Source: an uncultured Actinomycetes bacterium (GTDB taxonomy: Bacteria; Actinomycetota; Acidimicrobiia; Acidimicrobiales; RAAP-2). From it: 64,000 bases of DNA. The stretch covers positions 1 to 64,000 of the forward strand of contig CAIQWC010000040.1 of assembly GCA_903875425.1 (NCBI GenBank), read 5' to 3'. The first letter of the stretch is position 1. Each line of letters opens with the position of its first letter. The notes under the pieces were generated by a model that worked only from the letters and a program-made list of their open reading frames with translations, searched no databases and had not been told where the DNA came from. Shown piece after piece: positions 1 through 46,959 of the stretch. The position numbers were made by a program, and so were the translations under genes.

Positions 1-218
1 ATTACCCAGCGAGCCTCAACACCTTGAGGACCCATCGCCGTGGCACCTGACGGCACAGCGGTGCTCGTCGATGAACTTGCCGCCGATGCCGACGGTGCAC
101 CCTTGGGTCCTACGGCAAGCACAACAGCGACTACGGCAAGCACAACGAGGGCGAGAACGACCATGCTGCGGCGCAGCAACGCGCTTGTGGGTCGAGGTGC
201 TCGATGGCGTCCAGCCAC
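1..218 (-). CDS. membrane-anchored protein of unknown function, N-terminal part only
   Basis: The gene runs off the left edge of the window; only about 72 codons are visible. It starts with GTG at 218, with a clear AAGGAG ribosome binding site a few bases upstream. The visible protein has a short basic N-terminus (MAGRHRAPRPTS), then one strongly hydrophobic segment rich in V, A and L at about residues 20-36, then a Ser/Thr/Ala-rich linker. That is the layout of a signal anchor or secretory signal followed by an extracytoplasmic domain. No domain can be recognised in what is visible. A reading frame in another register across the same bases lacks this organisation and is not the gene. Confidence 0.6.
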   Translation of the reverse strand, partial: MAGRHRAPRPTSALLRRSMVVLALVVLAVVAVVLAVGPKGAPSASAASSSTSTAVPSGATAMGPQGVEARWV

Positions 219-41980: not shown

Positions 41981-42289
41981 ATGGCAAATAAGATTCGAAT
42001 TCGGCTCAAGGCCTATGACCACGAGATTCTCGATCAATCGACCGAGAAGATCGTTCAGACGGTCCTGCGCACCCAGGCCAAGGTTCAAGGTCCGGTGCCG
42101 CTCCCCACAGAGAAGCACCGCTACACGGTGATCCGCAGTCCCCACAAATACAAGGATTCGCGGGAGCACTTCGAGATGCGTATTCACAAGCGTCTCGTTG
42201 ACATCGTGGAGCACACCCCCAAGACAGTTGACTCGCTTCAGCGACTCGACCTTCCTGCGGGCGTGGACATCGAGATCAAAATTCAATAA
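41981..42289 (+). CDS. rpsJ: 30S ribosomal protein S10
   Basis: The 102-aa protein also acts as NusE in antitermination. The segment VRGPVPLPT-like [31 protein letters not shown] is intact. Unlike the usual S10 operon, 239 noncoding bases with a hairpin and a promoter-like pair separate it from rplC, so it appears to belong to the tuf transcript. Confidence 0.97.
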
Positions 42290-42302
42290 TTTCGGGCTTT
42301 GT

Positions 42303-42342
42303 GCCCCCCGGCCGAACCGTTTTGCGGAATCGGCCGGGGGGC
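42303..42342 (+). terminator. hairpin after rpsJ
   Basis: A perfect 13-bp GC-rich stem, GCCCCCCGGCCGA (42303-42315) with TCGGCCGGGGGGC (42330-42342), plus an inner CCG/CGG pair around TTTTG. No T-run follows, but this is the strongest hairpin in the window and separates rpsJ from the rplC transcript. Confidence 0.7.
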
Positions 42343-42350
42343 GCTAGTCT
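42322..42350 (+). promoter_or_regulatory. candidate promoter of the rplC operon
   Basis: TTGCGG at 42322-42327 and TAGTCT at 42345-42350 are exactly 17 bases apart. The -35 lies in the loop of the rpsJ hairpin. The expected transcription start is near 42357. Confidence 0.5.
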
Positions 42351-42356
42351 GAATAC

Positions 42357-42528
42357 CCCCCAGAAATGGGAGGCACCGAGGTGACTCGGAGCCAAGCAGT
42401 AGACGTGCTCGACAGCCTGGTAACAGGGACGTCGAGCCGAAACATTCGAGCGCTCTGTTCGGGGTTTCCCGAACGGAGCGTTGGCATGTCAGCGGAAACG
42501 CTGTCATCCAAGTTGAGGAAGGTTGCAA
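42357..42528 (+). promoter_or_regulatory. structured leader RNA upstream of rplC (candidate ribosomal protein leader)
   Basis: Four hairpins follow one another in about 135 bases. H1: CCGAG/CTCGG with GTGA loop (42376-42389). H2: GCTCGAC/GTCGAGC plus CCTG/CAGG with GTAA loop (42407-42437). H3: a 13-15 bp stem with one G-U pair around a GTTT loop (42449-42482). H4: CAGCG/CGCTG with GAAA loop, extended by ATG/CAT and TGG/CCA (42482-42510), ending just before the ribosome binding site GAGGAAGG. Three loops are GNRA. It does not match any leader I can name; an autoregulatory binding site for L3 or L4 is the obvious hypothesis. Confidence 0.65.
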
Positions 42529-43194
42529 GTGGCAACGAAGGCGATCGTCGGCGAAAAAGTCGGCATGACACAGGTCTGGGACGAGGACAACCGCGTGGTA
42601 CCCGTTACCGTGATCAAGGTTGCGCCGGTTCGCGTAGTCCAGGTCAAGACAGGCGAGCGCGACGGTTACGCCGCGCTTCAAGTCACCTGGGGCTCGAAGA
42701 AGGCATCCAAGCTCACCCGTCCCGAGGCAGGACACTTCTCCTCTGCTGGTGTAGAGCCGGGCGACAAGGTCGTCGAGCTTCGTATTGATGAAGTAGGCGA
42801 CTACACCGTTGGTCAAGAGATCACTGCTGAACTCTTCGAGAAGGGCGAGCGCGTTGACGCGATTGCCGTGTCGAAGGGTAAGGGTTTCGCTGGTGGCATG
42901 AAGCGACACAACTTTAAGGGCCAAGGAGCTTCTCACGGTAACCACAAGCACCATCGTGCGCCTGGCTCTATTGGTGGATGCTCGACCCCGGGTCGTGTCT
43001 TTAAAGGAACCCGGATGGCTGGACGTATGGGTGGCGAGCGCACGACGATTACCAACTTGGTCATCGTGGCTGCTGATCCAGAGCGCCAGTTGCTGCTCGT
43101 GAAGGGTGCGGTGCCCGGATCCAATGGAAGCACCGTCATTATCCGCAACTCCGTCAAGGTAGCGACACCTAAGGCCAGGGGAGGCGTTCGATGA
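42529..43194 (+). CDS. rplC: 50S ribosomal protein L3
   Basis: GTG at 42529 (221 aa) with GAGGAAGG six bases upstream; a TTG two codons earlier would break that spacing. The protein starts ATKAIVGEKVGMTQVWDE and has the GKGFAGGMKRHNFKG loop with Gln-type methylation region (FKGQGASHGNHKHHRAPGS, shown in part). First gene of a long operon; overlaps rplD by four bases. Confidence 0.96.
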   Translation: MATKAIVGEKVGMTQVWDEDNRVVPVTVIKVAPVRVVQVKTGERDGYAALQVTWGSKKASKLTRPEAGHFSSAGVEPGDKVVELRIDEVGDYTVGQEITAELFEKGERVDAIAVSKGKGFAGGMKRHNFKGQGASHGNHKHHRAPGSIGGCSTPGRVFKGTRMAGRMGGERTTITNLVIVAADPERQLLLVKGAVPGSNGSTVIIRNSVKVATPKARGGVR

Positions 43195-43871
43195 GTGAAA
43201 CCATGCTCCGTGGACCTATTCAGAAGGACCGTCCAGCCCCCGTCGCTCGCAGCGTGGAGCGCAAGGACATCACCGGCAAGGTGCTCGGCACCGTCAAGCT
43301 CGCTCCTGAGATCTTCGGTATTGAGCCCAACGTTCCGGTGATGCACCAAGTCGTGACCGCGCAACTTGCCGCTAAGCGTTCGGGTACTCAGTCCACCAAG
43401 ACCCGCGCCGAGGTGCGTGGTGGTGGCGCTAAGCCCTTTAACCAAAAGGGTACGGGTCGGGCTCGTCAAGGTTCGAGTCGCGTACCTTCCATGCCCGGTG
43501 GTGGCGTAGCCATGGGCCCCAAGCCCCGCAAGTACGACCAAGCAACCCCCAAAAAGATGGTTCGCCTGGCCTTGCGCTCAGCACTCTCGGACCGCGCTTC
43601 GGAAGACAATGTCATCGTGGTCGACAAGTTTGACTTCGACGCCCCCAAGACGAAGGACGCCTTAAGCGCCTTGGCCGCTATTGGGGCAAACGGTCACGTG
43701 CTCTTGGTGCTGACCGACGAAGAGATCAACGCAACGCTGTCGTTTCGTAACCTAGGTCACGTCACGACCTTGACGGCCGATCAGCTCAATACCTACGACG
43801 TCATCCGTAACGACGTGGTGGTGTTCACCGACGCCACGCTGCCAACGGCGACCGAAGGAGACGAGGCCTGA
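43191..43871 (+). CDS. rplD: 50S ribosomal protein L4
   Basis: The 226-aa protein has the loop QKGTGRARQGSSRVP and the core following MVRLALRSALSDRA. L4 represses the S10 operon in E. coli by binding its leader, which makes it a candidate ligand for the leader upstream of rplC. Overlaps rplC by four bases and rplW by one. Confidence 0.96.
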   Translation: MSETMLRGPIQKDRPAPVARSVERKDITGKVLGTVKLAPEIFGIEPNVPVMHQVVTAQLAAKRSGTQSTKTRAEVRGGGAKPFNQKGTGRARQGSSRVPSMPGGGVAMGPKPRKYDQATPKKMVRLALRSALSDRASEDNVIVVDKFDFDAPKTKDALSALAAIGANGHVLLVLTDEEINATLSFRNLGHVTTLTADQLNTYDVIRNDVVVFTDATLPTATEGDEA

Positions 43872-45020: not shown

Positions 45021-45299
45021 ATGCCCCGTAGCCTTAAAAAGGGTCCGTTCGTCGACGAGCACCTGCTCAAGAAGATCGATAAAGCGAACGCCGCCAATGA
45101 GAAGAAGGTCATTAAGACCTGGTCACGTCGATCAACGATTATCCCCGACATGATTGGCCACACCATTGCCGTCCATGACGGCCGCCGCCACGTGCCGGTC
45201 TTCGTCACTGAATCGATGGTGGGCCACAAGCTTGGTGAATTTGCTCCGACGCGGACCTTCCGTTTCCACGCCGGTCAAGAAAAGGTAGGCCGCCGATGA
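45021..45299 (+). CDS. rpsS: 30S ribosomal protein S19
   Basis: The 92-aa protein begins [18 protein letters not shown] and has the [17 protein letters not shown] signature. Overlaps rplV by four bases. Confidence 0.97.
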
Positions 45300-45997
45300 C
45301 CGCTACCAAGACCAATGAGCGTCCTGGGACCAAGGCTGTCCTTCGCCACTTCCACATGTCTGCCTCTAAGGCTCGAGTGGTGTTGAACCTCATTCGAGGC
45401 AAAGACGTACAACTTGCTTCTGAAATCTTAAATAATACGGAGCGCGAAGCAGCAGACGTCATTGCCAAGGTGCTGGCTTCTGCAGTGGCGAACGCTGTGC
45501 ACAATGACGGCCAGAGCGCAAGTGAGCTCTACGTGGCCGCTGCGTATGCCGACGAGGGCACCACGATGAAGCGCTGGCGTCCCCGCGCTCGTGGGCGCGC
45601 CACCCGGATTCGCAAGCGCGCGTGCCACATTACGGTCATCGTCGCTCGCATGGATGACGACAAGCTCGCAATCCGTGCCAAGGCGAACCAGAACGCTCAA
45701 GTTGCCCGCTCCAAGCGCGTGGCTGAGTCGCGTCGTCGCGCCGACCAGCAAGGTCGTGGGCGTCGTCGTGACGCTGAGCGCGAAGCCGCGGTTGAAGCCG
45801 AGGCACTCGAGATGACGAACGAGGAGACCACCGAGGTGGTCGAGACTGACCAGGTCGATGCTCCCGTGGAAGCCGTCGACATTGAGGTCACCGAGATCGA
45901 CGACATCGCTCAAGACTCCAATGTCGGTGATGACGATGCTGAAACTACTGATGCCACCTCAGAAGAGGTTGCCGAAACTGAAGAAGAGAGCAACTAA
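45296..45997 (+). CDS. rplV: 50S ribosomal protein L22 with long C-terminal extension
   Basis: L22 proteins are usually 110-130 aa; this one is 233. Residues 1-118 are the normal fold ([15 protein letters not shown], then [18 protein letters not shown] and ITVIV). Residues about 129-160 are strongly basic, and 161-233 are acidic and low-complexity (runs of Glu, Asp, Thr and Val). The reading frame is open, uses the same codon style and ends one base into rpsC, so the tail is not a frameshift. Confidence 0.94.
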
Positions 45998-46959
45998 TGG
46001 GTCAGAAGGTAAACCCATACGGCTTCCGCCTAGGAATCACGACGGACTGGAAGTCGCGGTGGTACGAAGACAAGAGCTACAAGGAATTCGTCATTGAGGA
46101 CTGGAAGATTCGTGACTTCCTCAACCGCGAGCTTGAGACCGCAGCCGTAAGCCGTATCGAAATTGAGCGTACGCGCGACCGGATTCGCGTTGACATCCAC
46201 ACCGCACGCCCCGGCATCGTTATTGGTCGCCGCGGGGCTGAGGCTGACCGCCTCAAGAAGGAGTTGGAAAAGATCACTGGTCTTCCCAACCGCATTCAGC
46301 TCAACATCCAAGAGATTAAGCAGCCTGAGCTTGACGCAACCTTGATCGCTCAGGGTATTGCTGACCAGCTGGTTCGTCGTGTGGCCTTCCGTCGTGCGAT
46401 GAAGCGAGCGATTCAGACGGTACAAAAGGCTGGTGCGCTGGGTATTAAGGTCCAGTGCTCGGGTCGCCTTGGTGGTGCTGAAATGTCGCGTAAAGAGCAG
46501 TACCGAGAAGGTCGTGTGCCGCTGCACACCCTGCGCGCCGACATTGACTATGGATTCCGCGAGGCCAAGACGGCAACTGGCCGTGTCGGCATCAAGGTGT
46601 GGATCTACAAGGGTGACATCCTGCCCTACAAGGTCAGCATCGAAGACAAGATCAAGACTGAAGCCGCTATGGCGACGGGCTCAACCTCGGGTTCCGTTGA
46701 GGCTGGCACGACCGAGGCTGCTCCCAAGCGTCTCATAACTGCGGGCGGTGGACGTCGTAAGGCACAAATGCCTGAGCCCGGTGTCGTCGATGTGGTTGAC
46801 GAGATTGTGGTCGAAGGTGAGCTCGAGGCTCCTCGAGAAATTATTGCGACGCCGGTAGAGGCCGACGAGCTCGAAAAGCGACTTACCGCTGAAGAAGAGA
46901 TTGAGGCTCGCGTTCACGAGAGCCACGAGACTCCTCACTTCCGCAAGGAGGTTGACTAA
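45997..46959 (+). CDS. rpsC: 30S ribosomal protein S3 with long C-terminal extension
   Basis: The 320-aa protein has the KH domain with VIGRRGAE (about residues 76-83) and the S3 C-domain to about residue 215 ([13 protein letters not shown]). About 100 further residues, rich in Glu, Val and Ala, follow and end in [14 protein letters not shown]. The extension is longer than in most bacteria. The ATG shares a base with the rplV stop. Confidence 0.95.

Follow-up and report, generated by a model that had tools for sequence, protein, structure and literature searches.

Stems 2 and 3 of the rpsJ-rplC spacer in an uncultured member of class Acidimicrobiia are a conserved RNA of about 95 nt, kept more faithfully among relatives than chance would allow. 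We regard it as probable (roughly 0.7) that this RNA acts in cis as a ribosomal-protein leader for the rplC-rplD unit, served by an internal promoter and bound by a protein that the operon itself encodes. Few bacterial gene clusters are as conserved as the S10 operon, and to our knowledge little has been described of its control outside Proteobacteria and Firmicutes. The result provides a well-supported RNA for much of class Acidimicrobiia, with an alignment and covariance model usable for annotation; it points to a control site internal to the S10 operon, accompanied by a break after rpsJ, and opens the question of the ligand (L3 or L4) to direct tests.

The rpsJ-rplC spacer

The window, by which we mean the whole 64,000-nt stretch of DNA analysed, belongs to a genome of 1.6 Mb in 46 contigs, and its rpsJ-rplC spacer measures 239 nt. 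An initial annotation had described a perfect hairpin, a promoter-like pair, four successive stem-loops and a ribosome binding site within this spacer, and each of these elements was found again in its place (Table 1). The RNA from 42357 to 42545 has a predicted minimum free energy of -91.3 kcal/mol, whereas shuffled versions average -62.8 (sd 4.15), giving z -6.87, and none of 200 shuffles was equally stable; including the upstream hairpin (42290-42545) takes z to -9.22. The open reading frame at 42366-42788 was rejected as protein-coding, as it enters rplC out of frame and relatives have no such frame. Further along the window, the L22 encoded by rplV (45296-45997) has 233 aa and a C-terminal tail that is long and acidic; at 320 aa, the rpsC product (45997-46959) is long as well.

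Table 1. Genes and RNA features around the rpsJ-rplC spacer, in window coordinates.
Feature	Position	Strand	Remarks
rpsJ	41981-42289	+	upstream gene, as initially annotated
Upstream hairpin	42303-42342	+	perfect 13 bp, arms 42303-42315 / 42330-42342; no U-run
Promoter-like pair	42322-42350	+	TTGCGG (42322-42327), spacer 17, TAGTCT (42345-42350); -35 in hairpin loop
Stem-loop 1	42372-42393	+	loop GTGA; outside class-wide motif; varying hairpins in relatives
Conserved RNA motif	42398-42491	+	model R1, 95 positions; 85.7 bits, E 2.6e-19
Unpaired GAYGU	42402-42406	+	directly 5' of P1; A and second G at 100%
Stem-loop 2 (P1/P2)	42407-42437	+	P1 42407-42412 / 42432-42437
P2	42416-42419 / 42424-42427	+	loop GTAA
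G-C pair and two-base NA bulge	G42415-C42430; bulge 42428-42429	+	inside P1/P2 element
Stem-loop 3 (P3)	42451-42480	+	42451-42463 / 42468-42480; loop not GNRA
GYNNGCRUG tail	42480-42488	+	conserved; RUG = 42486-42488
Stem-loop 4	42490-42503	+	loop GAAA; variable in relatives
Shine-Dalgarno-like GAGGAAGG of rplC	42515-42522	+	predicted mostly unpaired in unbound leader
rplC (L3)	42529-43194	+	GTG start; first gene of downstream unit
rplD (L4)	43191-43871	+	overlaps rplC; alternative candidate ligand

Structure and covariation

The initial annotation had proposed a structured leader and suggested looking for covariation by aligning the regions upstream of rplC in relatives. We gathered such regions from the order and family of the window and recognized a common core by eye; a MAFFT alignment of 45 sequences then yielded covariance model R1. 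Extensive covariation was found in stems 2 and 3, which bears out the conserved RNA and restricts its class-wide part to these two, stems 1 and 4 being variable. Pairing holds in 95.8% of the cells of the MAFFT alignment, 13 of the 23 pairs are changed on both sides, and covariation stands at 0.360 versus 0.136 in shuffled and at most 0.097 in slid alignments. A second alignment (A2) of 100 R1 matches aligned to R1, 99 of them distinct, gave corresponding values of 96.2%, 19 of 23, and 0.415 versus 0.135 and at most 0.080 for the distinct sequences. As A2 was fitted to the structure of R1, the MAFFT alignment is the stricter test; both agree. The strongest background-corrected mutual-information pairs are almost all predicted stem pairs.

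The consensus reads AAnnGAYGU-P1-NN-GCC-P2-GG-NA-C-N-P1'-C-A-CAACC...-CGCUCCG..CGGAGCG-UYNGCRUG. Conserved within it are GAYGU, a G-C pair with an NA bulge (the pair present in 98 of 99 sequences, the bulge being AA in 45, GA in 44, UA in 10 and CA in 1 of 100), the C/CACAAC strand, the GCUCCG/CGGAGC stem and GYNNGCRUG. All Watson-Crick pair types are used at the pair positions of P1. The strands GCUCCG/CGGAGC of P3 are near-invariant in the family, with GCUCUG in the window, and because this lower part hardly varies the support for the helix comes from the ends and upper part of P3. Position 16 of A2, a loop base, correlates with position 32, the first bulge base (G-G, A-A), a possible non-Watson-Crick contact. 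No consistent pairing of GCRUG with the upstream CAC was seen by eye.

Three GNRA loops had been taken initially as the signature of a protein-binding leader, a reading that the relatives contradict: the P2 hairpin has no fixed form, being a tetraloop in some members and dozens of bases long in others, and GNRA occurs in 9 of the 31 loops of hairpins just upstream of P1. We rejected the GNRA loops as a recognition signal, since they are not conserved in family members.

Distribution and place before rplC

R1 matches were present in 67 of 148 genomes sampled from class Acidimicrobiia, and every in-class match that we examined has rplC 12-105 nt downstream on its own strand. The position of rpsJ relative to them differs: just upstream, about 1.8 kb away, or absent from the fetched DNA. 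The place before rplC is thus kept even where rpsJ is not nearby, in agreement with the original proposal that the leader belongs to the rplC-rplD unit and not to rpsJ. An exact P3 pattern run across 84,980 genomes matched at least 119 stretches, a sample and not a census; among the 119 matches listed, 111 lie 14-145 nt upstream of rplC, and several of the eight exceptions, found in unrelated genomes, look like chance matches. Records that match the motif are titled mostly Acidimicrobiaceae, Acidimicrobiales, Acidimicrobiia, Microthrixaceae or Candidatus Microthrix. Out-of-class matches in a phylum-wide sample reach at most 34.1 bits, and the six such loci that we checked showed no rpsJ, rplC, rplD or tuf; we rejected an occurrence outside the class, these matches being weak and none of those checked lying near rplC.

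In eleven motif-free genomes, of which ten represent seven other families of the class and one comes from the order, rpsJ and rplC are separated by -10 to 67 nt (approximate, with the L3 start placed by alignment); motif-bearing spacers with rpsJ in view measure at least 163 nt. Several genomes with long spacers and low R1 scores (L028, L063, L066 and L086) keep a recognizable P1/P2 and have lost P3, suggesting that P1/P2 is the essential core. Random sequence yields a comparable P1/P2 match in 0.05-0.11 of cases (for L028, L086 and L098, the last of which keeps a short P3).

The only congener sampled, G209, carries rplC twice, at the ends of contigs C12 and C26 (L032 and L102). One product is 98% identical to that of the window; the other starts identically and diverges to 76% overall. 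The two copies may reflect an assembly mixture of strains or recombination.

Putative promoter and proposed mode of action

That the leader has a promoter of its own, a ligand and a repressing effect is inferred. The promoter-like pair of the initial annotation gains support from the relatives: TTGnnn-15..19-TAnnnT precedes the motif in 24 of 54 spacers versus 2.9 expected from Markov sequences, counts that are not independent, as the spacers come from related species. In the window and, by eye, in several relatives, the -35 element falls within the loop of the hairpin that follows rpsJ. The arms of this hairpin in congener G209 carry compensating changes, including C-G to U-A (alignment read by eye). 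The hairpin is probably the 3' end of the str-rpsJ transcript, and a terminator-like end of the str-rpsJ unit would overlap the promoter of the rplC unit.

In the proposed mechanism, transcription of the rplC-rplD-rplW-rplB... unit would start at an internal promoter after rpsJ, placing the P1/P2-P3 RNA of about 95 nt in the 5' UTR. A ribosomal protein of the same operon would bind this RNA when in excess over its rRNA site, and binding would lower expression, either by blocking initiation at rplC or by stopping transcription in the leader.

Candidate ligands

L3, the product of the first gene, is our slight and tentative favourite over L4 as the ligand. In two relatives the last hairpin of 23S rRNA (GUUGAU-AG-GCC...GG-UA-C-UA-AUCGGC), which we take to be H100/H101, is similar to P1/P2; the 23S genes of the relatives were located by a conserved DNA stretch. 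When 23S rRNA was scanned with the leader pattern, no site other than the 3'-terminal one in domain VI had a 6-bp outer stem, and random sequences gave one or more matches in 0.03-0.05 of cases at the strictest setting and in 0.12-0.16 one step looser. Covariance model R2 of P1/P2 did not recover the 3'-terminal 23S site. Since the pattern scan finds the site but the model does not, mimicry of this hairpin is suggestive only. The uL3 protein is reported to organise domain VI of 23S rRNA (PMC9935924; PMC9687910). The more specific proposal, that the leader is an L3 autoregulatory site copying the 3'-terminal hairpin of domain VI, is in our judgement rather unlikely; if true, it would make L3 a new autoregulatory ribosomal protein, with its control site at the break of the S10 operon after rpsJ.

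It is quite possible that the ligand is L4; the RNA would then be the counterpart of the E. coli S10 leader, shifted to a place behind rpsJ and unrelated to it in structure. That uL4 regulates the S10 operon in E. coli is established (PMC10931766); L4 is also the presumed ligand of an Archaeoglobi leader before rplC (PMC7247131), and rplD is the second gene of the unit. Against L4, no likeness to its domain I site stood out in the 23S pattern scan, an observation that is weak either way.

Another protein of the operon (L2, L22, L23, S3, L16 and others), or bL17 or bL19 in trans, whose genes presumably lie outside this operon, is an unlikely ligand given that the motif sits before rplC. This reading is consistent with the reported location of bL17 and bL19 near H100 and H101 (PMC11354259), and leaders for L2 exist elsewhere (PMC7247131).

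Leader peptide, initiation and termination

Reading frames after the conserved RUG are random in frame, length and stop position among relatives; no conserved leader peptide follows, and an attenuator based on a leader peptide (uORF) starting at this RUG was therefore rejected. The fold, its conservation, the fixed place before rplC and this lack of a conserved peptide make up the computed part of the case. In the window, about 7 nt separate the Shine-Dalgarno-like GGAG in the 3' strand of P3 from the RUG (42475-42488, A2 positions 79-93), whose bases are conserved in A2 at 96% (R), 98% (U) and 96% (G). GGAG with RUG resembles an initiation site lacking a conserved frame, possibly a decoy.

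In 49 of 72 leaders more than half of the Shine-Dalgarno sequence is predicted to be unpaired, and this predicted openness without ligand fits a leader that is on by default. The distance from P3 to the start codon ranges from 18 to 193 nt, so the motif cannot, as a general rule for every species, mask the ribosome binding site directly. Where a canonical intrinsic terminator would have a U-run, P3 is followed by GYNNGCRUG, and so it is not a terminator of that kind.

The same features bear on the idea that the RNA is a structural 5' UTR with no protein ligand, serving mRNA stability, RNase III processing, ribosome standby or decoy initiation. P3 is long, stable and invariant in sequence, and GGAG followed by RUG looks like an initiation site, as this idea would have it; the frames after RUG, however, end anywhere, and P1/P2, with its conserved unpaired bases and invariant-type bulge, survives the loss of P3, which points to specific recognition. 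We consider a purely structural role improbable. That the element is a repeat or mobile palindrome, or only the terminator of the upstream unit, is highly implausible: GC-rich palindromes are common in mobile elements, but there is one full copy per genome, before rplC (second matches being mostly antisense of P3), and the terminator-like hairpin after rpsJ is a separate element upstream.

Comparison with known leaders

The initial annotation had named no Rfam family for this RNA, and our covariance-model search of Rfam 15, run with permissive thresholds as well, likewise returned nothing relevant for the window and nothing at all for four canonical members. The open-licence papers that we searched describe leaders of the S10 operon from other phyla and an L4 leader before rplC from archaea, with none from Acidimicrobiia and none for L3; a description may exist elsewhere. 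The RNA is probably an undescribed ribosomal-protein leader.

One of the closest known systems is the S10 leader of E. coli, which precedes rpsJ and has an intrinsic attenuator. Both are structured 5' UTRs before ribosomal genes of the S10 operon, with an operon-encoded protein as the expected ligand. Unlike the E. coli leader, the Acidimicrobiia RNA stands before rplC, downstream of rpsJ or with no rpsJ nearby, has another structure and has no stem with U-run terminator. The L4 leader of Archaeoglobi (Eckert and Weinberg 2020, PMC7247131) also lies before an rplC-rplD operon; it is archaeal, and the permissive Rfam search matched neither it nor related families. The Firmicutes S10 leader and the Peptostreptococcaceae rpsJ motif (PMC7247131; PMC11109978) are same-operon leader candidates from another phylum, and the latter lies before rpsJ, unlike the motif described here. 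Two general features of such leaders, a covarying 5' RNA structure and a constant place upstream of the same ribosomal protein gene, are present. The Acidimicrobiia RNA departs from the E. coli S10 leader and from leader-peptide attenuators in the features tested, and in kind it would work like a ribosomal-protein leader.
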